In this document: in pieces, positions 2,316 through 19,350 of the stretch | How the letters are laid out: each line of letters begins with the position of its first letter | Numbering within the stretch: the stretch's first letter is position 1 | Origin: Clostridia bacterium | Lineage (GTDB): Bacteria; Bacillota_A; Clostridia; Oscillospirales; CAG-272 | Direction: 5' to 3' | DNA length: 64,000 nt | Assembly: GCA_017632155.1 (NCBI GenBank) | Contig: JAGBRZ010000190.1 | Location: 45,984 to 109,983, forward strand | Made by a program: the position numbers and the translations under genes | The notes under the pieces: generated by a model | Database searches by the model: none | The model's input: only the letters and a program-made list of their open reading frames with translations | Told to the model about the DNA's origin: nothing

Positions 2316-3398
2316 TTACTTACGCTTTCTCCATGACTTAATTTTAGCACGGATGTCGATACTGTTGTCTTCCAGACATTTCTTCAGAACCGCCAACATT
2401 CTCCAGCCATCACCGTTGCAATACATAGTTGCTTTGGCCTTGATGAACTGTAAAGACAATTCCTTATCCAACTTCTTTCCGGCATCATCAATGATGTTGC
2501 AATTGTGGAAACGAATCATATTCTGGAGTGTAAAGTAGGCACCAGAACCCTTGTAAGCGTCAATCCACTCACAGCACTGAGGAGTGTCCCAATCCAACTT
2601 CAAACGCTTGTCGTTGAAATTCTTTGTAGCCACATACAACTGCTCAATTGTCTTCGCATTACGGATTTGTCCAAGACCCATCCAGAACTTGTTGTAGAGC
2701 TTACTACGCATGTCAGATACGAAGATATGCTTACCGCCAATTGTCTTGTATGGCACACCTTTACATCTCTTCTCAGGTTTACGGTCTACAAACTTCTGCA
2801 ACTCACTGATATAGTGCTTTGCCATCTGCATTACTACCGCCTGATTGAACCAACGATGGCGGTCCTCAAAGTTCTCACGGTCATTGTGCTTTGCCATCTT
2901 GACCTGAGCGTGCAACTCGTTCAATAACATCTTCCAGGTGTACTCGTAACCAAGACGATGAATCATAGCAGTTACGCCATAACGCTGATGTGTCTTATAG
3001 TCTTCAGCAGCCATCATGTAGAACATCTGCGCCATCACCCAACGTCTGAACAACTTTCGGTTAGGTATAGTACCATTCGTCAAAATGTACTGGAAGATAG
3101 GATCGTTATCGTCCAAGATAGAGAGTTTGCCATCCTTGTTGCAAGCGATACACTCACCGCCATTTGCACCCTGCATAGCAAATAGATTACTTACGTCAAC
3201 ACCAGCAGCTCGCAATGCCTCGATACGTTCCTGTGCGCTACGCTTTTGCTTGTCAGCAGCAGGAGCATATACAGTACCCAGACCAGCGTCCTTACCAATG
3301 ATTACACCGACAGCAATAGATGACTGTGCGGGGATTGCCAACTCTGTGCCGCAGTTAGGGCACAACACCTTTGTCTCGTTTGACTTCTTTTTAGCCAT
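2316..3398 (-). CDS. hypothetical protein with N-terminal zinc ribbon
   Basis: 360 residues. Residues 12-20 have CPNCG and a second pair CIAC lies near residue 82; these could form a split zinc ribbon. The remainder is helical and basic (FRRWVMAQMFYMMAAEDYKTHQRYGV; HRWFNQAVVMQMAKHY), ending in RAKIKSWRKRK. The basic charge and zinc pairs suggest nucleic-acid binding, which is inference. It lies between the 152-residue gene and the orphan hairpin in the leftward operon. Confidence 0.65.
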   Translation of the reverse strand: MAKKKSNETKVLCPNCGTELAIPAQSSIAVGVIIGKDAGLGTVYAPAADKQKRSAQERIEALRAAGVDVSNLFAMQGANGGECIACNKDGKLSILDDNDPIFQYILTNGTIPNRKLFRRWVMAQMFYMMAAEDYKTHQRYGVTAMIHRLGYEYTWKMLLNELHAQVKMAKHNDRENFEDRHRWFNQAVVMQMAKHYISELQKFVDRKPEKRCKGVPYKTIGGKHIFVSDMRSKLYNKFWMGLGQIRNAKTIEQLYVATKNFNDKRLKLDWDTPQCCEWIDAYKGSGAYFTLQNMIRFHNCNIIDDAGKKLDKELSLQFIKAKATMYCNGDGWRMLAVLKKCLEDNSIDIRAKIKSWRKRK

Positions 3399-3431
3399 AA
3401 TTGATAGAATTAAAAAGTTATTGAAAAACAG

Positions 3432-3890
3432 TTATTTATTTGTAGGCTCCACCCAATCTTTGAGTATCACCAAGTCTTTGTCATTACCACTTTGCCAAAA
3501 CCAATTACCCATTGTTTCAGCATTCCACTGGAAGCCAAGAATGATTTGGCATAAGAAATACAATTCCAGTTCGATTTGCGCTTTGTCTCTTCGTTCACCA
3601 AACATCATATCGTCATCGCTCAAATCAAGCTCTGACAAGGTTCTGAAGTATTGTCGCGCTTTACTTTCACTACGCTCTGACGGGACAGAGTGCTTGTATC
3701 GTTGGTATAACATTTCCACCTCCGACAAACATTCTCTCTCATCCGCTTTCGCTACTCCCAGTTCACCTTCATACACACCGTTTTCGATGATGTACTTACC
3801 GTCAATCTTCAGACTTCTCTCTTGAAAATTGACCTTGAATTTCGCACCGTTCTCAACGGCAGAAATCGCATTTTGATAGATGTTACTCAT
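3432..3890 (-). CDS. hypothetical protein downstream of the hairpin array
   Basis: 152 residues, MSNIYQNAISAVENGAKFKVNFQ..., acidic, with no signal or membrane segment. The start is the first ATG after the array: the last array hairpin ends about 60 nt upstream. A transcript running from the RT through the array would reach this gene, so it could be part of the same system or just the next early gene. No family recognised. Confidence 0.65.
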   Translation of the reverse strand: MSNIYQNAISAVENGAKFKVNFQERSLKIDGKYIIENGVYEGELGVAKADERECLSEVEMLYQRYKHSVPSERSESKARQYFRTLSELDLSDDDMMFGERRDKAQIELELYFLCQIILGFQWNAETMGNWFWQSGNDKDLVILKDWVEPTNK

Positions 3891-3949
3891 ACTTAAAATG
3901 TTATTAAATAATTCACACTCAAATCATTGACGCATTGCTTTACATACTT

Positions 3950-4020
3950 GATATATACAGTATGTCCTGGATCCTGAAGTCCATGTTAATTACTTCAGGA
4001 TCCAGGTATAATACTGTATC
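3950..4020 (-). ncRNA. array unit 1 hairpin
   Basis: Outer 9-bp stem ATACAGTAT 3955-3963 with ATACTGTAT 4011-4019. Perfect 15-bp middle stem CCTGGATCCTGAAGT 3966-3980 with 3992-4006. The loop of 11 nt has no inner hairpin. This is the shortest unit and the last on the RT strand. Confidence 0.75.
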
Positions 4021-4100
4021 TTAAATGTTGATTGCTTGTGTAAGAATTGGTTGCGTTACCATGAAGTCTCAATTAGAATGACACATGACTGTAGTTATTC

Positions 4101-4187
4101 GATGTATGCAGCTTTGTTACAGTGGGCACCTGTAGAACCAGCTCGATAGGCTGGTGAATGCGTGGTGCCCTTGTAATCTGAAGCTGC
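4101..4187 (-). ncRNA. array unit 2 hairpin
   Basis: Outer GCAGCTT 4108-4114 with AAGCTGC 4181-4187; TTACA 4117-4121 with TGTAA 4172-4176; middle GGGCACC 4124-4130 with GGTGCCC 4164-4170; inner ACCAG 4137-4141 with CTGGT 4151-4155. Confidence 0.75.
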
Positions 4188-4270
4188 ACAATGAAGCCTC
4201 TAATCTTGACTTCTCACTTTGTGTTAAGTTCTGCAATACTCATAGAAATGGCACGTTCCTATAATCGTAT

Positions 4271-4362
4271 GATATATGCCGCGTTAAGAAGCATGTAGCC
4301 GGCGTGCATCTCGGTAATAACGGAGACTGCACGCCGGCAGCGGGCTTATTTAGCAACGCGGC
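4271..4362 (-). ncRNA. array unit 3 hairpin
   Basis: Outer GCCGCGTT 4278-4285 with AACGCGGC 4355-4362; middle 10-bp GCCGGCGTGC 4298-4307 with 4329-4338; short inner pairing TCT/AGA around a TAATAA loop. The stems are GC-rich, unlike the AT-rich units 1 and 5. Confidence 0.75.
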
Positions 4363-4447
4363 CTATTAAATCAGGGTTTCTCCTTGTATTGCAATACGTG
4401 CTTTTTTCGGCAGATCTCAAAATACCGGTATATCTCTGTAGTGTCTT

Positions 4448-4536
4448 GATATTGCCCGTGCTTGGACGCGATCTCATCCACATGAAATCACCTGATAAGG
4501 TGATGATAGGATGAGATCGCGTCATTATGACACGGG
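4448..4536 (-). ncRNA. array unit 4 hairpin
   Basis: Outer CCCGTG 4455-4460 with CACGGG 4531-4536; perfect 15-bp middle stem GACGCGATCTCATCC 4465-4479 with 4509-4523; inner ATCACCT 4487-4493 with AGGTGAT 4498-4504. Confidence 0.75.
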
Positions 4537-4625
4537 GTTATTGAAGATGTATTACTTGAACTGCCATTCTATACTGATTATTTTTTACGGTTCTCTATGC
4601 GGTTGGCATATTACTGTATCGCTTT

Positions 4626-4713
4626 GATATAATTCAGAATATGTTGATTAACAGCATCTTATTCCAGTAGATAAACTGGATTCAGATGCTGTGAATCGAC
4701 TTACATTCTGAAT
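4626..4713 (-). ncRNA. array unit 5 hairpin
   Basis: Outer ATTCAGAAT 4632-4640 with ATTCTGAAT 4705-4713; middle ACAGCATCT 4651-4659 with AGATGCTGT 4684-4692; inner CCAG 4664-4667 with CTGG 4676-4679. Confidence 0.75.
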
Positions 4714-4797
4714 ATTAAACTTTCCACATCTTGAACCATACGTTTATGCTAACTTTTTGTAATTCTCAGGAATGCTGGCATATCACTATACGAATTA

Positions 4798-4880
4798 GAT
4801 ATTAGTCGTAAGAGATGACGTGCGCCATCACGAGATGGAACATCTGATAGGATGTGGAAATCTCGTGCCATGAAACGTCA
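4798..4880 (-). ncRNA. array unit 6 hairpin
   Basis: Outer TGACGT 4816-4821 with ACGTCA 4875-4880; middle CACGAGAT 4829-4836 with ATCTCGTG 4860-4867; inner ACATC 4840-4844 with GATGT 4851-4855. Confidence 0.75.
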
Positions 4881-4979
4881 TATTCAGACGGCAAATTGAA
4901 GTTCATTCTCTTGAATCACGCTTTTATGCTAAGTGTTTGTTCGGTTCTCATAATAACTGGCACATTCCTTTATTGTGTT

Positions 4980-5065
4980 GATATTTCCAGCGTATAGCAG
5001 CTATAATCGAGTCCGAAGGCGTATCGTTAGAGGGCCTTCAGACTCGCAGTAGAGCTGCTTAAACG
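4980..5065 (-). ncRNA. array unit 7 hairpin
   Basis: Outer AGCAGCT 4996-5002 with AGCTGCT 5053-5059, extended by CGT 4991-4993 with ACG 5063-5065; middle CGAGTC 5008-5013 with GACTCG 5041-5046; inner GAAGGC 5015-5020 with GCCTTC 5034-5039. Confidence 0.75.
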
Positions 5066-5149
5066 CGGGATATTTAATCCTTATTCCTTGAACCTACACA
5101 ATGTGCTTTGTGTGAATGTCATACGAATGGTATGAAACTTTACTCTTTC

Positions 5150-5240
5150 GATATGGACAGGTTATGCCAGAATCTTGGAACCTTGAATCCGGTTGATATA
5201 CCGGATGAATGGTTCCTGGACTCTGGTTAATAGACCTGTC
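5150..5240 (-). ncRNA. array unit 8 hairpin, nearest the RT gene
   Basis: Outer GACAGGT 5156-5162 with ACCTGTC 5234-5240; CCAG 5167-5170 with CTGG 5223-5226; middle GGAACC 5177-5182 with GGTTCC 5211-5216; inner TCCGGT 5188-5193 with ACCGGA 5200-5205. It would be the first unit transcribed if the array is read with the RT. Confidence 0.75.
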
Positions 5241-5288
5241 GAATAAATGCTCGTATCTTCATTCACAATTGCATACTCAATTTACACT

Positions 5289-6551
5289 TTATAGAGACAA
5301 GACCAGTGTGTTATATACTTCACGACTTGTCAGTAGAGCATTCCTCATACATCCAATCGTTAAGTACCCAGCGATCTTGTTTGTTTTAGTGCGGTTTGCA
5401 GATACATTCTTGCCTCGTCCTCGTACAACACAGCCATCAGGTTTGTACTTTACATAACCGAGACCGCCAACCTTACGCTTTCCTGTCTCAACAGCTCTCA
5501 AACAATCCATAACAAACTTATTCAGTTCGTCAATGTCCCGTTTGACATTGCACACTGGAAGGATTGATGATGCCCAGCTAAATTCGCCGTTACCCTTATA
5601 CAGATAACGGTTAACCGAATGGACCGCCTTTTCTAACGATATGTTAGGTTTCTTAATAGTACGTGCCTCAATCTCTTTCTGGAATGTTTTGATACGACTG
5701 GAAGATAGCGAAATATCCTTGCCTTTGATGCTGAACCCAAGAAATTTGAACCATTGGCTGTTAGACAAGTATTCCACTTTTGACGGATTGAGTTGCATTT
5801 CCATTTCACTGAGTCTGCACTCCAGACGTTCCATCGCCCACTGATAATCGGAGCCAACGTACAACATGTCATCAGAATATCTTACGTAGTAGCCCGACAT
5901 ACTGGAAAGTTCCTCATCCAGTTTGTAAAGAAGCACATCAGCCAACCAGCTTGCAACAGCGCATCCTTGTTTGAGGGACTGGTAATGAGAGCATAGTTGG
6001 TTGTCTTCATTGAAATACAAATCGCAGTGATAATACTTTCTCAGCACATGAATAAGAGCAGAGTAACCATACTTCTTCTCTACGTAATCAAATGCCTCGT
6101 CAATATACTTGATTGGCACGCTGTCAAAATACTTGCTCAGGTCCGCTTTCCACCCCAAAATTTCTGAAGTGTTCGCGCTTACGATGGTATTGCTCACTTC
6201 CAGCACTATCTTGCCACATCCGATGCCTGTCTGATACGATTTACATTGCTTGTGTACCATTTCTGGACACAACTCAAACAACAGGTCATTGGCAATACTT
6301 AACACAATACGATCTATCGGCTCGTTCACATAAACAGTACGAAAATCACCGTTGTCCTTTGGTATCTTCGCCGTATGAGGGGGTGAAATTTCATACGTAC
6401 CGTTATACATAGCGCGATACATCTGGATGCGTGTTTCTTCGCTTGTCAACAGAATCAATTGATCCTTACGAATATCCTTGACTACGCCTTTCTCAATTGC
6501 TTTCGTCCAGCGTTCAATCTCAAAGAATTTTTGTAGAATTATATCTGCCAT
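5289..6551 (-). CDS. reverse transcriptase associated with the hairpin array
   Basis: 420 residues. RT palm motifs are visible: motif A ADLSKYFDS near 136-144 (Asp137 a candidate catalytic residue), motif B LKQGCAVASWLAD at 193-205, the catalytic YSDD box at 225-228 (VRYSDDMLYVG), and FKFLGF at 269-273. These support RNA-templated DNA synthesis. It lacks the DGR-type SQ motif seen in the RT at 53-54.4 kb. It has no maturase or HNH domain, so a group II intron protein is unlikely. The C-terminal 120 residues are basic (GKRKVGGLGYVKYKPDG) and may be a thumb or RNA-binding extension. The stop lies 48 nt before the first array hairpin, and a 123-residue gene ends 2 nt upstream of its ATG. Exact RT family not recognised. 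Confidence 0.9.
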   Translation of the reverse strand: MADIILQKFFEIERWTKAIEKGVVKDIRKDQLILLTSEETRIQMYRAMYNGTYEISPPHTAKIPKDNGDFRTVYVNEPIDRIVLSIANDLLFELCPEMVHKQCKSYQTGIGCGKIVLEVSNTIVSANTSEILGWKADLSKYFDSVPIKYIDEAFDYVEKKYGYSALIHVLRKYYHCDLYFNEDNQLCSHYQSLKQGCAVASWLADVLLYKLDEELSSMSGYYVRYSDDMLYVGSDYQWAMERLECRLSEMEMQLNPSKVEYLSNSQWFKFLGFSIKGKDISLSSSRIKTFQKEIEARTIKKPNISLEKAVHSVNRYLYKGNGEFSWASSILPVCNVKRDIDELNKFVMDCLRAVETGKRKVGGLGYVKYKPDGCVVRGRGKNVSANRTKTNKIAGYLTIGCMRNALLTSREVYNTLVLSL

Positions 6552-6553
6552 AG

Positions 6554-6925
6554 TTATTCATTTGTGACATTAAACATTTGTTTCATCGTGTGTCGCAAAG
6601 CATCTTCAAACCCATCGCTAACTTGCCAATATCCCAGCAATTCATCAGCAATCATTTCAAGTTGCTCATTGGTTGGCATATTGCCATCATAACCGTATTC
6701 TTCCAGTAAGTTGCGACTAATGATGATTTTTACAACCTCTTCTACTTTCGGAGCCTGGTCTTTCGCTTCTGGTGTAATGTGTGACTTATTCGATAATGCT
6801 TCTTTTGCTTCATTCAGCAAATCAACCGCATCAGACAAGAAGTTGATATTATCATCGTAATCAAACTCCTCCAACGAGTCATAATCATTCAAAAACTCGT
6901 CTATTTTGTTTATCAATTCTTTCAT
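6554..6925 (-). CDS. acidic hypothetical protein upstream of the RT
   Basis: 123 residues, very acidic in the first half (DYDSLEEFDYDDNINFLSD), helical, with no known motif. Its stop is 2 nt from the RT start, so the two are probably co-translated. It could be an RT partner or an unrelated early protein; the sequence alone does not decide. Confidence 0.65.
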   Translation of the reverse strand: MKELINKIDEFLNDYDSLEEFDYDDNINFLSDAVDLLNEAKEALSNKSHITPEAKDQAPKVEEVVKIIISRNLLEEYGYDGNMPTNEQLEMIADELLGYWQVSDGFEDALRHTMKQMFNVTNE

Positions 6926-6928
6926 AAT

Positions 6929-7103
6929 TTATTCGCTTAAACCACAAATTTCATAATCCGTTACTTTACACTCGTGCTCATCATCTAAACTAATACCGTT
7001 TAGAGATAAGTCTTGCGCTATTTCCATATCGGAAACATCGCTATATTCATTTGGACAGTCTAAGTCCACACGAACAATTAAATAAATGCTTCTTGATTGC
7101 ATG
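6929..7103 (-). pseudogene. small gene broken by a one-base shift
   Basis: An ATG at 7103 opens MQSRSIY, and a coding-like frame continues as LIVRVDLDCPNEYSDVSD... through to a stop at 6929, but the two parts are one base out of frame. The break is at a run of four A on the plus strand (7080-7083). With three A, a 57-residue acidic protein would be intact. This is either a real frameshift mutation, a homopolymer sequencing error, or initiation at a non-ATG codon inside the second frame. It fills the gap between neighbouring early genes exactly. Confidence 0.5.
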
Positions 7104-8802: not shown

Positions 8803-9060
8803 CTAATCGCGTATTTGAAGTTGAAAATCATTTCTGTCACAATTATACACCATAACAGCCGCACCATTAGGAGCATTCTTGCCGGCGTGATAGCACTTAA
8901 CACCCATTTCTCTTAACTGGGTGAATGCGTTGAAAGAGTCTGTTTCATTATTGAAACGTATGTCGAGATTGCTGTGCTTCATATCCTCAGACATGCTCAC
9001 AACAAAGGCTTTGACTGCCAAGCACAATGAATTAACACGTGTTGAAATTTGTACATTCAT
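8803..9060 (-). CDS. small hypothetical protein
   Basis: 85 residues, MNVQISTRVNSLCLAVKAFV..., ending VYNCDRNDFQLQIRD, immediately upstream of the next gene with no gap. No motif. It follows a 105-nt gap with a leftward terminator, so it may start a new leftward transcript, although no clear promoter is visible. Confidence 0.55.
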   Translation of the reverse strand: MNVQISTRVNSLCLAVKAFVVSMSEDMKHSNLDIRFNNETDSFNAFTQLREMGVKCYHAGKNAPNGAAVMVYNCDRNDFQLQIRD

Positions 9061-9135
9061 AATCTATCGCTTTGTGAAGAATAGAAAGTCGAGGTGTCCA
9101 ATGTTGTCCACTTAATGAAAAATTTTCAAGAAAAA

Positions 9136-9172
9136 GCGTGGCAAAAATTTTCATTTGCTCACGCTTTAATCA
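9136..9172 (-). terminator. leftward rho-independent terminator
   Basis: On the minus strand AAAGCGTG and CACGCTTT form the stem across an AT-rich loop, followed by TTTTTC. It overlaps the stop codon of the 63-residue gene. Confidence 0.55.
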
Positions 9173-9357
9173 TCTTCTTCCTCATCATCAGACTCTTGAA
9201 GACCTAAATCATCCTCAATCATACCTTCATCGACCAAGTGATGATAAAAGCCTTCGTTCAATAAATCGTTACCGTGATAGTCAGTGAAAGCACGCGCTAC
9301 GTCCTCTCCAGACATTTCACACAATTTGTCCCAAATATGATGTTGTACTCTATCCAT
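9166..9357 (-). CDS. small acidic hypothetical protein
   Basis: 63 residues ending in an acidic tail (LGLQESDDEEEDD). Its stop lies inside a terminator hairpin and its start is 2 nt from the upstream stop. Acidic tails like this occur in DNA-mimic and regulatory phage proteins, but no specific role can be claimed. Confidence 0.6.
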   Translation of the reverse strand: MDRVQHHIWDKLCEMSGEDVARAFTDYHGNDLLNEGFYHHLVDEGMIEDDLGLQESDDEEEDD

Positions 9358-9359
9358 TA

Positions 9360-9620
9360 TTACTCCGTTTCTATTGATGTTTCTAACTCAGTTCTTATAA
9401 TCTCGCAAAACTCCTGAAGATGTTTTTCCACAACTTCTTTACGTACTTCCGCATCCAATACCTCACCTTTGGGTACAACCGGATTATGCTTAGTGCGTAC
9501 AATGTCAACCAATGCCATAGCACTCGCAAAAACATCAGAATGTTTCTCACGCTTCCAAAATGCAAGACATTGTTTATGGTGTTCTTCAAGAATGACTGCT
9601 TGTTGTTCCTTAGTAAGCAT
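9360..9620 (-). CDS. small hypothetical protein
   Basis: 86 residues, MLTKEQQAVILEEHHKQCLAF..., strongly helical and charged, with no known motif. It was chosen over an overlapping 94-residue frame (9395-9679) because its composition is protein-like and it abuts both neighbours. Confidence 0.6.
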   Translation of the reverse strand: MLTKEQQAVILEEHHKQCLAFWKREKHSDVFASAMALVDIVRTKHNPVVPKGEVLDAEVRKEVVEKHLQEFCEIIRTELETSIETE

Positions 9621-9629
9621 AATATGACA

Positions 9630-9932
9630 TTAAGTGTGAATACTCCAACCGTATGACCTACTAAGCTGCACGCTACCATTTTGCTGATAGCCCTCTCCTG
9701 GAAACCCGTGAAATATCATACCGCCGTTCATGGATCTGCTGCCATCTTCTCGGATTACCTCAAAGTAAAAACTATGCTCTGCATGGTCAGAATAGACGTT
9801 TACTTCAGCCACACCTTCCCAGGAATAAAATCCCATTAAGCGCATTATGCACTCTGCAAAAGTCTTGTCATAATGCTCACGTGATGCAGTAAGAGCCTTG
9901 CACCACTTTTCTTTACAATGAATTTTCAGCAT
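9630..9932 (-). CDS. hypothetical protein
   Basis: About 100 residues from the ATG at 9932 (MLKIHCKEKWCKALTAS). The earlier ATG at 9980 would overlap the upstream gene by 68 nt. The C-terminal half is beta-rich with glycines (GGMIFHGFPGEGYQQNG). No family recognised. Confidence 0.55.
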   Translation of the reverse strand: MLKIHCKEKWCKALTASREHYDKTFAECIMRLMGFYSWEGVAEVNVYSDHAEHSFYFEVIREDGSRSMNGGMIFHGFPGEGYQQNGSVQLSRSYGWSIHT

Positions 9933-11298: not shown

Positions 11299-11925
11299 TC
11301 ACAACACTTGCCAGATTTTCTCTGCCTCGTTAACTACTTTGCGCAGTTTTCTCTCGTACTCTTCCTGACGTTGCATAGCACGCATCTCGTCAAACGCAAG
11401 ATTATAGCCACGCTTACTCATCTTTTTGTATCGTTCCGAAAGAGCTGCATCGCTAAACATACGCTCGCGCTTCTCGTTGACACGTATTCTGTGCATTTCA
11501 CGTCTGGAAATCTGCTCATCATACTCGCATTTAACGGTTGTGTCCGCTGTGAGTTGTGCATACACCACCTTCCAGTTCTCCCAATCCACCTGTTTTGCCC
11601 TGCCTTTGACAATCCAACACACCGACACACCCTCTTTCAGCATCTCGCCCAAATGATGAGCGAAAACACGTGTCCGCATTACCGGCATAATGGTCGCTTT
11701 TCGGTTCTTGATACACACCATAACATCGGCAGAAGATGAGTGCTCCTCGTGCAAGTCCCTCCAGAAGCCTGCGGAATACACGCAAGAGCGTTGAGCCGCA
11801 AATGCGTAAAGAAATTCGTGGATAAGCGACAATTCAGGAGCGTGTTTGTCCGCGTCTGATTGCGTGTTGGCAACGTCATACATTGCCGTAAATTGGGCAG
11901 AAGATAATATATCGGCTATTTTCAT
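11299..11925 (-). CDS. hypothetical protein
   Basis: About 208 residues from the ATG at 11925 (MKIADILSSAQF). The longer frame from 11970 adds a poorly coding-like leader. The centre has beta-type segments (SADVMVCIKNRKATIMPVMRTRVFAHHLGEML) and a long charged C-terminal helix (RQEEYERKLRKVVNEAEKIW). A nuclease-like fold is conceivable but I see no convincing active site. It ends at a terminator. Confidence 0.6.
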   Translation of the reverse strand: MKIADILSSAQFTAMYDVANTQSDADKHAPELSLIHEFLYAFAAQRSCVYSAGFWRDLHEEHSSSADVMVCIKNRKATIMPVMRTRVFAHHLGEMLKEGVSVCWIVKGRAKQVDWENWKVVYAQLTADTTVKCEYDEQISRREMHRIRVNEKRERMFSDAALSERYKKMSKRGYNLAFDEMRAMQRQEEYERKLRKVVNEAEKIWQVL

Positions 11926-12009
11926 TTTTGAGCATTTTTGAGGGTTCGGGAAAATGTGGAGAAAACTCACGCATTAGCGACAAGATGCAATTATACGCAC
12001 GCACCTATT

Positions 12010-13241: not shown

Positions 13242-13297
13242 CTCGGCTTAATACTAATGGGCAGGCTTGGGCGGGCGTAATTGTAACACGCCATCGA

Positions 13298-14340
13298 GTG
13301 TCCACATGGACCGGTATGTGGACAGGTAACGTGGATGCCTATTATGCGCTCGTCCACAGCGTCCACACTGGGCACCCACGTCTCGTCCAGACACCTCCAC
13401 ACTGGACACACGTGGATAGCCACATGCTCCCACACACTCCCACGATTTTGGACACCCACACAACATGTCGTGGACACCCACACGCTTGTTATATGGGTGC
13501 CCACGTTGTTTCGCACGGACTCCCACGTTTCAAGCACCTGGATGCCCACACGATGTTCAACGTGGAGCCACGTGTTGTTGCTTCGTGGACCTCCACAAAC
13601 GTGCGGTGGAACTCCACGCTTTAGGAGGGTGGACTCGGCTGGACTGCCACACCATTTGCGGTGGACTGCCACGATATTGATTGGGTGCCCACGAAGTCTT
13701 ACGGACACCCACGAGGTCTTTGGGTGTCCACAATGTTTCGTGGAAAGCCACGCGACAAATTGGGTGCCCACATTTTTGCGTGGAGGTCCAAGGCAATGCT
13801 GAATTGGGTGTCCACGTGTTGTATTGTGGGCGGTCAGGTGTTTTGGCTGGATGCCCACACGATGAGATTGGGCACTCACGAGGTTTTGTGGGCACCCAGA
13901 TATTTGCGTGGACTGTCACGTGTTTGGCTTGGGCACCCATTTGTTGCGTATGGACACCCAAGGCTTACGGTTGGACACCCATAGTTGTGCGTTGGATGTC
14001 CACGTGTTGTTGCTGGGTGTCCACGAATATGCGTTGGGTAGCCACGTGCAGATTGTGTACGCCCAGGTTCATGGGTGGAAAGCCACGCGACTATTGTGCG
14101 CACCCATTACGGCTACGTGTGGACCCCCAAAAAATCGGCAACTTTCACGCATTGGAAGTCCACACCCGTCCACCAAGTTCCACGCACTCCCACAACAGCC
14201 CACGAGAGAGTGCTGCGTGGTGCCACGTGTGTTGTGTGCAAGCCCACGTGTTTTGCGTGCGTGCCCATCTGTGCCCAGCGTGTTGTGTGGAGGCGCGTAT
14301 TTTTGCGCGTGTACGCCCACCTGCGTAATTATGTGCGCCC
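13298..14340. repeat. 1-kb array of degenerate ~21-bp TGGnnnnCCAC repeats
   Basis: About 45-50 copies of a near-palindromic core such as TGGGTGTCCACG, TGGACACCCAC, TGGATGCCCACA or TGGAAAGCCACG follow each other every 20-22 bp, with exact 21-bp spacing over several successive units at 13914-14060. The half-sites TGG and CCA are kept; the centre and the 9-10-bp spacer vary. Reading frames are open on both strands simply because stops are rare, and the protein-level repeats are out of phase. This argues for a DNA- or RNA-level role such as clustered protein binding on one helix face. It is bounded by two leftward terminators. Confidence 0.8.
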
Positions 14341-17160: not shown

Positions 17161-17458
17161 AATCTTCCTTGTTAAGTTGAACCTCGCTACCCATTTCGCT
17201 TAATATCCCATTGAACTCTTCCACTGTATCATTGATTGGCCTAAAGCGATTGATAATTTCCTGGAAGGGTTGTATGTAGTTGTTGATAATATCGTGCGCT
17301 TCTACTACTGCCTCTTCATGACTTCTGCCGTATCGTTTCATCTGTACCTGTTCCACATACTCGTCAAAAGTCATGTTCCAATGTGTGACCGTATCAACAA
17401 CCGAACTGAACCTGCAATAGAGGCCATTCGGTTGTTGTGCTACAAACGCTCCCATCAC
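17147..17458 (-). CDS. hypothetical protein
   Basis: 103 residues, acidic, helical, with no motif. Its ATG overlaps the stop of the replication initiator-like gene by 4 nt and its end overlaps the zinc-ribbon gene, showing a tightly coupled operon. Confidence 0.6.
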   Translation of the reverse strand: MMGAFVAQQPNGLYCRFSSVVDTVTHWNMTFDEYVEQVQMKRYGRSHEEAVVEAHDIINNYIQPFQEIINRFRPINDTVEEFNGILSEMGSEVQLNKEDYESD

Positions 17459-19350
17459 TCATGATTTATTTCAAATTCATCAACTATGCTGGGAAGTGTA
17501 TGTAGGCGGTTCCACTTCCTTATTTTGTCAGCACTGAACATTCGTTGCCTTAAATTCAAGCTGCCGGTGCCATCAGGTTTGTCTTTTGAAAGAACGCTGA
17601 GGAAATCTGATTCTGTTACACCCTTGTCCTTAGCATCTACATAAAAGGCCGCTAAAGTGGTTCTGTTGATGAAGGTATGCTTTGGCTCGTCAACCTCTCC
17701 CTGTTCTCCAATCTTGAAGTTTTCATTGAGGAAGTTGTAAATGACCAATTCAACCGGGGTTAACTGGGAGTAACGTGCGTCATCGTCTCCTATCAGGATT
17801 ATTTTCTGCATGTAGCTCATATCATCACCTCTATTGTCTCTTTTCACTGACCTTGGAGGCAACTGTTCTACCTGTTCCCCATAAATGTTCCTGACACGTT
17901 TGGTTGATATGACGTAGTTATCTCCATCCAGTATTGTGACCAGTTCCCAATCTATGATGTTGCTGAAGTCATCAGGATTGTCTATTGTTGCCGTAACTGG
18001 AAAATCCTCTCCGTTGACTGTAACACTACCTGCTTCAATAATTGCTTGTGTCTGATCAAAGGCTGGAAGCAAAATGTCTTTCATGAGACGTTCTCTTGCT
18101 ATGCTTACATTTTCCAAGTTGGTGTTAGCTGGTATAACTTCTTTTCCGTTTTCGTCAAGTATTGCTTCCTGGTCAAAACATTCATGCGCGATTTCCCAAA
18201 CTTGATTTATATAAATCTTATCTGGACGATCAAGACAATTGCGAATGTCGGAAATGTATTCTTCAACTTCGTTAACTGGGAAGAAGGGGAACAACTGTTT
18301 TCTTTTGGTTTGTTGATAACCTGAGAGTGATTGTTCCAAACTTGTTTTATCAAGTTCAAAAATATCTTTTTCTTTTTCTTTGGGAGGAATAACTTCGTTA
18401 TTCCGACTTTCTTCTTTATTTATATTTATTTCTTTATTTACTGTTATGTATTTTTGCATAACCCCTTGTGTATTTTTACATAACCCCTTGTGTATTTTTA
18501 CATAACCCCAGTGGTGCAAAAAGAAGGTAAATTCTGCTCCTAAAACTGCATTTATTGGATCATAGTAAGTAGTGTGGTCAAAAAGTACAGAAACGAGGTT
18601 TCCGAACTCTTCTTCGGCCAAAAAATCGAGAAAATAATCCCTAAATTCCTCAATAAATTCCAGTTTTGAGTAGTTTTCGAGGACTTCTGTACGAATTTCA
18701 TCCAGAATACTTATGTATTTTTGCATAACCTTGTGCATTTTTACATAAGGTTCTGCATTTTTACATAAGGTTGTGTATTTTTGCAGAGGTTGTGTATTTT
18801 TACATAACTCATCATCTTCAGAGTTGTGTATTTTTACACAAGTTGTGTATTTTTGCATAACTTCTGGTTGTGTATTTTTACACAAGTTATGTATTTTTAC
18901 ATAACCTCCCTCCTGCATCAATAATTGTTCGTTGCCATTAGTACACTCATTATAGCCAAACTTATGTAAATTTACATAATCCCCAGCCTGCAACAATTCA
19001 ATAAACTGTTTCTTGTCTGTAGTTTTGGTTAATGCTTGGAAAGCCTGGATAAGCGCGATATATTTATTGATATTTATGACACACGTCTTATTATTCATGG
19101 TGATTAGTTGCATGGTCTGCAACTCACCGAGACTCTTTACAACTGTGCGCCAATTGACATTTCTCTTCTGGGCAATGTCATTTGCACTTACCACAAACTC
19201 TGTCTTCTTCCCAGTTTTTAATCGGCAAAGATATTCATCAAGCAGGTACATGAATACGGCCTGGTTCACTACAGAGCCGACCATTTGAGGAAAGCATCTG
19301 TAGTGATGGCTGTACGGTATAACCTGTTTGTCATTTACTTCAACATTCAT
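17455..19350 (-). CDS. replication initiator-like protein carrying iterons in its gene
   Basis: 631 residues. Residues 45-85 look like a winged-helix DNA-binding domain (SANDIAQKRNVNWRTVVKSLGELQ), as in plasmid and phage initiators. Two stretches, about 130-213 and 280-302, are made by a repeated DNA element read in all three frames, giving YVKIHN, LCKNTQP and VMQKYTT peptides. The C-terminal part (about 330-631) is helical and may recruit the host replication machinery. In phage lambda the origin lies within the initiator gene O; the same arrangement is inferred here. The gene is followed by small genes and preceded by ligase and dUTPase genes in the same block. Confidence 0.7.
   Translation of the reverse strand: MNVEVNDKQVIPYSHHYRCFPQMVGSVVNQAVFMYLLDEYLCRLKTGKKTEFVVSANDIAQKRNVNWRTVVKSLGELQTMQLITMNNKTCVININKYIALIQAFQALTKTTDKKQFIELLQAGDYVNLHKFGYNECTNGNEQLLMQEGGYVKIHNLCKNTQPEVMQKYTTCVKIHNSEDDELCKNTQPLQKYTTLCKNAEPYVKMHKVMQKYISILDEIRTEVLENYSKLEFIEEFRDYFLDFLAEEEFGNLVSVLFDHTTYYDPINAVLGAEFTFFLHHWGYVKIHKGLCKNTQGVMQKYITVNKEININKEESRNNEVIPPKEKEKDIFELDKTSLEQSLSGYQQTKRKQLFPFFPVNEVEEYISDIRNCLDRPDKIYINQVWEIAHECFDQEAILDENGKEVIPANTNLENVSIARERLMKDILLPAFDQTQAIIEAGSVTVNGEDFPVTATIDNPDDFSNIIDWELVTILDGDNYVISTKRVRNIYGEQVEQLPPRSVKRDNRGDDMSYMQKIILIGDDDARYSQLTPVELVIYNFLNENFKIGEQGEVDEPKHTFINRTTLAAFYVDAKDKGVTESDFLSVLSKDKPDGTGSLNLRQRMFSADKIRKWNRLHTLPSIVDEFEINHE
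18444..18980 (-). repeat. iteron-like repeats, candidate replication origin
   Basis: About 13 copies of TTRTGTATTTTTRCATAAC (plus strand). Three lie at 18444-18509, about nine at 18711-18906 in near-perfect 19-20-bp tandem, and a variant TTATGTAAATTTACATAAT near 18962-18980. The core is a partial palindrome (TTATGTA/TACATAA). Since the repeats occur in three different frames of one protein, the selection must be on DNA. The clustered repeats inside an initiator-like gene point to an origin. Confidence 0.75.

Follow-up and report, generated by a model that had tools for sequence, protein, structure and literature searches.

A phage-borne UG27-group reverse transcriptase adjoins a tandem array of diversified hairpin units that is very probably its own noncoding RNA

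We analyzed a 64-kb stretch of contig JAGBRZ010000190.1 (64,000 nt; hereafter, the window), which is part of a contractile-tailed phage with a Mu-type portal (Pfam, 3.1e-48), head protease, tail sheath, and tape measure. Its minus strand carries a module that reads, in order, a reverse transcriptase (RT) gene at 5289-6551, a tract at 3891-5288, the gene RTas346 at 3432-3890, and the gene RTas337 at 2316-3398. The 1.4-kb tract fills the interval between the RT and the next gene on the same strand (3432-3890), and its eight units, which resemble noncoding RNA (ncRNA), are spaced 170, 182, 172, 178, 177, 170, and 151 nt apart. An initial annotation of the window had proposed a YSDD-bearing RT gene at 5289-6551 and, behind it, eight units spaced 151-182 nt apart in a gene-free tract; the measured spacings agree, as does the gene, a 420-aa minus-strand frame matching RVT_1 and RT_UG27. 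The features are listed here in reading order, with z scores for hairpin stability and E values from the linker profile described below.

5289-6551, minus: UG27-group RT by profile, 420 aa, YSDD (PADLOC RT_UG27 745 bits; Pfam RVT_1 4.6e-19)
3891-5288, minus: array tract of eight ncRNA-like units on the RT strand (spacings, linker profile, folds)
5156-5240, minus: hairpin of unit 1 (z -9.42)
5087-5154, minus: box and predicted pseudoknot linker of unit 1 (E 3.8e-7)
4986-5070, minus: hairpin of unit 2, stem GAGTCTGAAGG common to other phages (z -7.26)
4910-4984, minus: box and predicted pseudoknot linker of unit 2 (E 3.8e-12)
4807-4890, minus: hairpin of unit 3, the weakest (z -3.58)
4730-4802, minus: box and predicted pseudoknot linker of unit 3 (E 1.3e-8)
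4632-4713, minus: hairpin of unit 4 (z -8.96)
4555-4630, minus: box and linker of unit 4 (E 5.7e-7)
4456-4536, minus: hairpin of unit 5, interior block-replaced relative to locus L001 (z -8.36)
4398-4452, minus: box and linker of unit 5 (E 2.7e-6, model 1-57)
4278-4362, minus: hairpin of unit 6 (z -7.79)
4205-4275, minus: box and predicted pseudoknot linker of unit 6 (E 1.8e-10)
4105-4190, minus: hairpin of unit 7 (z -6.93)
4049-4105, minus: box and linker of unit 7 (E 2.4e-6, model 1-61)
3955-4019, minus: hairpin of unit 8, the last, at spacing 151 (z -8.08)
3914-3954, minus: terminal truncated box of unit 8, directly before the next gene (E 3.9e-5, model 1-41)
3432-3890, minus: RTas346, 152 aa (PADLOC 3.1e-69)
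2316-3398, minus: RTas337, 360 aa, N-terminal CPxCG motif (PADLOC 3.4e-140)

Read on the RT strand, the units follow one plan: a long hairpin, then the box AYATC-N7-TANAG-N2-RTGTGYC, and then a small covarying hairpin. The long hairpin segments (80-97 nt) are each more stable than all 200 dinucleotide shuffles, with z scores from -3.6 to -9.4 (units 1-8: -9.4, -7.3, -3.6, -9.0, -8.4, -7.8, -6.9, and -8.1). The three-tier hairpin initially assigned to every unit is thus stable in all eight, but, with folds judged by eye, the lower, middle, and apical tiers are seen in most units only, unit 8 having two tiers and unit 3 being the weakest. The conserved spacer blocks described at the same time are also present, but because a transcript would run with the RT, they read ATATC, ATGTGCCA, and TGAGA on that strand, with the box after each hairpin and not before it. 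Folding energy was also tried as a guide to strand and was rejected: of 146 hairpins, 113 are less stable on the RT strand and one is a tie, and composition-shuffled hairpins shift similarly. A linker profile, seeded with seven of the window linkers and trained on all arrays, gave eight matches in the 64-kb window, all inside the tract and all on the RT strand, a result that speaks for specificity and not for discovery because of how the profile was made. At gathering thresholds, Rfam has no match within the window.

The linker, too, is structured. From 162 linkers across the family (133 distinct), 102 were kept after dropping relatives within 15%. The box spacer is N7 in 88 of these and N8 in nine, with none at the other lengths tested, and the 88 N7 segments comprise 79 different sequences. 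Downstream of the box, a second hairpin has a 4-bp stem around the loop AGCACA; when this stem was placed by its loop motif alone, 82% of its cells were paired, compared with 43% when partners were redealt (maximum 50.5% across 1000 permutations). All four pairs form in 56 of the 102 linkers, with 26 different stem words among those 56, and the three inner pairs are the top three of 2016 column pairs by corrected mutual information. The AGCACA loop can base-pair with the TGTGC in the box, and therefore, an H-type pseudoknot between loop and box is likely, its second helix varying too little for proof by covariation. Pairing between N7 and other parts of the linker, or between N7 and the 3′ end of the hairpin, did not stand out, the observed values being reached in 75 and 53 of 500 permutations, respectively.

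The window RT is assigned to the UG27 group by its match to the PADLOC RT_UG27 profile, which scores 745 bits and spans residues 1-420 of 420; lower scores were obtained with UG26 (115 bits), UG17 (DRT10; 82 bits), the general RT profile (79.7 bits), and Drt9 (75.6 bits). The UG groups are said to stem from work by Mestre published in 2022 in Nucleic Acids Research (NAR). The YSDD motif, the active site on which phage protection by a defense-associated RT would depend, is intact in all 26 RT relatives checked. All three proteins of the module match PADLOC profiles of the UG27 group over nearly their whole length; these profiles describe proteins only and not the array. The N-terminal CPxCG motif of RTas337 is zinc-ribbon-like by eye and by the names given to relatives. 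AlphaFold 2 models of RTas346 and RTas337, with predicted local distance difference test (pLDDT) scores of 92.7 and 81.2, respectively, gave no fold match in the PDB at E<=0.001.

We surveyed the family by protein searches that returned 34, 80 (the best 80 of 115), and 30 overlapping loci, to which two phage records were added; together with the window, these made 146 sequences (many contigs being fetched twice), or 99 distinct loci, numbered here with the prefix L. The interval after the RT is a tract of 150-2000 nt in 81 loci, shorter than 150 nt in 15, and 2968 nt in L101, and L024 and L120 lack RTas346 downstream. In the 81 loci, this tract measures 190-1632 nt and separates the RT from RTas346 downstream. 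Tract lengths fall mostly into steps of ∼170 nt (190, 194, and 199; 354 and 379; 515-541; 624-658; 706-759; 851-905; 1026-1054; and, after further classes, 1331-1466 and 1632 nt), and unit number runs from one (L029, L030, and L108) to about nine. A loose expression for counting boxes was too noisy to use, with 40 matches even in 96 kb of RT genes, and therefore, unit counts rest on tract lengths and the linker profile. The profile matches 58 of the 81 tracts at E<=0.001. Across the 99 loci (1.21 Mb), 198 matches lie in tracts between RT and RTas346, two lie elsewhere (L086 and L139, both after RTas337), and none is on the other strand.

A set of 80 loci, with exact duplicate tracts removed and loci with RT and RTas346 fused left out, underlies the counts of spacing, stem density, loose box matches, close pairs, tree positions, and RT motifs. 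Among 77 of the 81 tracts, 63 have a profile match at E<=0.01 and 76 have a Watson-Crick stem of at least 9 bp; the only tract with neither, the 190-nt one of L030, folds into a hairpin. The tracts contain 71 stems of at least 12 bp in 73 kb (0.97 per kb), and the neighboring genes contain 4 in 212 kb (0.019 per kb).

The partner genes travel with the RT. RTas346 is downstream of or fused to it in 97 of the 99 loci. RTas337 is downstream in 95; L092 and L120 stop at a contig end, L140 has the gene upstream, and L024 is unresolved. Near the divergent UG27 RT of L140 are two hairpins with 34-bp Watson-Crick stems, at 9638-9734 and 11905-12000. RT and RTas346 touch in 15 loci: L106 and L111 have separate abutting genes, and 13 (L025, L033, L073, L077, L080, L081, L083, L086, L092, L093, L096, L136, and L137) form a fusion subtype with one open reading frame (ORF) of 529-554 aa in which the RTas346 part is shortened. 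In touching loci, hairpins of at least 10 bp occur within 2.5 kb after RTas337 in 14 of the 14 that continue (12 fused), L092 ending first; some also carry hairpins before RTas337, and L093 has a unit with the full box readable after it.

The initial annotation expected such arrays to accompany this RT family, and searches starting from the array motif or a partner gene agree. A scan of IMG/VR for the box plus TGAG, a strict motif that finds a minority of UG27 contigs, returned 18 contigs, all UG27-bearing. Of 51 RTas346 loci, 48 have an RT upstream within 4.5 kb, with L280 and L286 cut by a contig end, and all 51 have RTas337. The remaining locus, L272, has RTas346 and RTas337 at 4495-6060 with no RT ORF or profile match in the fetched 9.4 kb, and it is possibly a natural case of the partners alone. 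Ten loci of UG26, the nearest RT group, gave no linker profile match and no partner gene within flanks of up to 1.5 kb; four of them have single stems of at least 11 bp (three in L187, one of 18 bp at the RT 3′ end), with no row after the RT.

Some phages of gut bacteria carry the UG27 module, and we assign its carriers to phages of Bacteroidales. Among 393 Bacteroidales genomes drawn around one UG27 carrier, 128 have some match to the UG27 profile, and only three, the center genome included, exceed 700 bits. Bacteroides phage BS-TP1, an isolated phage, gave the best tape-measure match among phage records (50% covered, 46.5% identity); at its own UG27 locus (L144, 79351-81963), the record calls the RT a "tail protein" and leaves the stretch of the array behind it without annotation. 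In a FastTree RT tree rooted with UG26, which leaves out the fusion subtype, the early branches hold the loci that have one to four units (L108; L029 and L030; L099, L102, L103, and others), and arrays of five to nine units are mostly on later ones, so that by this tree unit number varies with descent. The deepest UG27 branch, L111, has its hairpin row after RTas337 (8877-9755) and not between RT and RTas346.

Stems differ within an array, and yet units at the same position can be common to different phages. The initial view of the stems as unrelated is therefore right for the array but not across phages: the unit-2 stem GAGTCTGAAGGC/GCCTTCGGACTC recurs in six IMG/VR contigs, all UG27-bearing. 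Where hairpins change, two-sided Watson-Crick changes number 56, whereas sliding the partners gives 13-18.

Near-identical arrays can differ by a swap of one hairpin interior. Among 21 array pairs hand-picked as close, which are not independent, nine have low-identity blocks, 11 have none, and L060/L130 differ only in poly-T length; we inspected by eye eight of the nine (L003/L006 and L015/L034 included; all but L020/L021). The window and L001 are 99.2% identical outside one block (minimum 56%) that is the inside of hairpin 5, the lower stem being unchanged. L017 and L018 are 99.8% identical outside one block (52%), with scattered changes some tens of nt to either side, and their RTs, RTas346, and RTas337 are 100%, 100%, and 99.8% identical, respectively. 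L058 and L113 (98.4% outside) have one hairpin tip exchanged. Where exchanged hairpins were folded, stems form on both sides of the comparison. Alleles of such hairpins recur: unit 4 of L003 is found in L114 (95%), and unit 4 of L006 is found in L142 (93%). Recombination between phages therefore explains at least part of the block replacement. The other eight of ten queried hairpin versions gave only self or short chance matches among the fetched loci, and an exact IMG/VR search for the unit-5 arm of the window gave none.

Array and genes can also part company. The tracts of the window and L001 are 98.1% identical and their RT DNA is 77.7% identical, and the corresponding values for L009/L121 are 97.6 and 77.2%; in both pairs, a recombination border lies near the RT/array junction. 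L013/L126 show the converse, with a tract identity of 98.7% and gene identities of 88.3% (RT), 89.7% (RTas346), and 81.2% (RTas337).

We compared the module with known RT systems. Available excerpts of published accounts describe one RNA for each RT-plus-ncRNA system, a short template copied repeatedly in DRT9 and DRT10, and SLATT as the neighbor named for both; the excerpt of one of them places the ncRNAs of DRT9 and DRT2 upstream of the RT (PMC12483538). The UG27 module resembles DRT9 (UG28) and DRT10 (UG17) in its related RT profiles (75.6 and 82 bits) and in having stem-loops in the putative ncRNA, and the stable stem-loop order of DRT10 is present in the array unit. It differs in that the tract comes after the RT and holds from one to about nine nonidentical copies with a likely pseudoknot, and in having RTas346 and RTas337 in place of SLATT; no A-B-A′ signal was detected in the array. 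The linker consensus, the part of the unit aligned for this feature, has no U-rich tract of the kind conserved in the DRT9 template. Like retrons (msr-msd), whose msDNA is 2′-5′ linked, the module sets an RT beside structured RNA with a variable hairpin, but it has many units, and the best retron profile among the matches listed reaches 48.8 bits. Diversity-generating retroelements likewise include phage-borne RTs beside variable sequence, with a template repeat and a variable repeat that differ by adenine-specific changes, but the UG27 array is noncoding, and no template/variable repeat pair was seen at 3000-7000 of the window, where direct repeats reach at most 32 nt, at 81%. The regular alternation of conserved and variable blocks recalls CRISPR or guide arrays, but here, a structured motif makes up the conserved block, and the variable block can pair with itself and has no convincing source in phage flanks.

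From linkage, the common plan, and the shared box, we consider it very likely that the array is the UG27 RT's own dedicated ncRNA, tandemly multiplied. The following mechanism would fit. RT, array, RTas346, and RTas337 would be read in one direction, and the array RNA would fold into eight modules of the same plan, each a long hairpin, a rigid single-stranded box AYATC-N7-TANAG, and a pseudoknot. Box and pseudoknot would form the RT-binding scaffold; the initial annotation gave this role to the spacer, and it is likely, as a prediction, because the linker is the conserved, structured part. The hairpin would set the 5′ boundary of the template, as in the related DRT10, and N7, between invariant boxes, would be the copied template, so that eight units would yield eight short complementary DNAs (cDNAs). 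These assignments follow from the unit order, which matches that of DRT10, a stable hairpin followed by a short segment; the stem would be free to drift or be exchanged because a boundary needs stability and not a given sequence. We infer this transcription as ncRNA, RT binding, template position, and cDNA synthesis, and from the RT group and the phage location only, we infer a role against rival phages, with RTas346 and RTas337 as effector or cofactor of a DRT-like module. One RT may thus use many small RNAs, perhaps against rival phages. For the whole chain, from tandem ncRNA through hairpin boundary and N7 template to cDNAs and an anti-phage module, we put the probability at roughly 0.4.

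Several observations weigh against this scheme. A DRT10-type A-B-A′ repeat was not detected at the box: in three direct-repeat tests, 34, 304, and 222 of 500 permutations did as well as the real sequences. In DRT9 and DRT2, the ncRNAs lie upstream of the RT, but this array lies downstream, and the linker profile is silent in 23 of the 81 tracts. Specificity between RT and array is not strict because RT alleles of 77-78% identity adjoin arrays that are 97.6-98.1% identical. Finally, G.U pairs make up only 3.7% of predicted pairs in the hairpins, compared with 11.8% in RNase P, 15.5% in 5S, and 11.7% in shuffled hairpins, a scarcity that also fits hairpins that must pair as DNA.

That scarcity would be expected if RNA and cDNA both fold, as in the strongest rival, a retron-like arrangement in which synthesis would be started by box and pseudoknot and would cover the hairpin, each unit contributing a different hairpin cDNA. 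The hairpin interior is also the part replaced in exchanged units, and single (1x1) stem mismatches include 28 G.T and 21 A.C of 187. The ratio of changes toward G.U and toward A.C (157/212 in hairpins) was not used, as its controls disagree (RNase P 1.51, 5S 0.70). NAxxH and VTG are motifs of retron RTs; the former occurs in none of 80 UG27 RTs and the latter in seven. A bank of distinct products, as the initial annotation proposed, would also sit poorly with one-unit arrays (L029, L030, and L108), with same-position units common to different phages, and with the finding that hairpins and their shuffles score nearly alike against flanking phage DNA (medians of 26.3 bits each), and we regard hairpin copying as somewhat unlikely. 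The same sharing of stems, together with compensatory drift, a unit number ranging from one to about nine, and the one plan, one box, and one spacing of the window's units, suits a view that gives every unit the same function, for instance as several RT binding sites on one RNA. Stems would then differ only because recombination would remove tandem copies of identical sequence, favoring drift under a fixed fold. Whole-interior replacement between arrays that are 98-99.8% identical elsewhere (the window/L001, L017/L018, and L058/L113) does not look like slow drift, which leaves this dosage or scaffold role unlikely.

Three further explanations are less probable still. An improbable one is a self-rewriting array, in which hairpin copies made by the RT would return to individual units as new interior blocks; arms would stay Watson-Crick matched because one arm would be templated by the other, and the phage would gain a diversified, renewable set of hairpin nucleic acids. 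The array could instead work as DNA, providing folded single-strand or cruciform sites (attC-like) for recombination, replication, or packaging while the RT acts elsewhere. Structure kept while sequence varies, the few G.U pairs, and unit-wise exchange would fit such sites, but the array is linked to UG27, RT and array are both missing from the fetched part of L272, and no recombinase is among the module's genes in the window, so that we find this improbable as well. Variable units between conserved linkers might finally suggest a CRISPR-like memory with hairpins acquired from invaders. Only four of 146 hairpins exceed their best shuffle against phage flanks, however; three of these are one place in L093, among the hairpins after RTas337, and one (17 nt, L033) is unexplained. 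The window tract has no match among 72,556 plasmid records, a search that did not extend to host genomes, and same-position units are common to different phages, making an acquired memory the most remote of the explanations.

The UG27 RT and its partners were already catalogued; the tandem diversified RNA is new as far as we searched the literature. In open-access titles and abstract openings, a scope outside which most subscription papers fall, we found no account of UG27 RTs or of an RT-linked RNA array; open-access papers with the letters "UG27" concern other subjects, and a cold-seep virus paper contains "UG26" and "UG28" (PMC10504277). An RT group represented in our sources by a protein profile only has an apparent dedicated RNA family with one plan in one to about nine diversified copies, and the module brings with it two partner families (1450 and 704 protein clusters) for which no known fold was matched. 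The array makes it possible to test clearly what an RT would gain from many RNAs: natural versions with one to nine units and the RT-RTas346 fusion subtype are available for comparison, and replacement of a single hairpin is visible between near-identical phages.

Two other repeat regions lie in the window. At 13290-14340, ∼1 kb is occupied by close-set short near-palindromes of the TGGGTGTCCACA type in both orientations, many of them 18-45 nt apart. Allowing at most two mismatches, the window has 23 matches to the type (4.5 expected; none of 100 shuffles reaches 23), and 20 of these fall between 13290 and 14165; a stricter pair pattern was not found in the three related phage records searched. 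Iteron-like tandem repeats of ∼19-22 bp, of the ATTTTTACATAAGGTTGTGC type, occur at 18412-18907 inside a 631-aa minus-strand ORF (17455-19350) that weakly matches a phage replication initiation family (E 0.00095).

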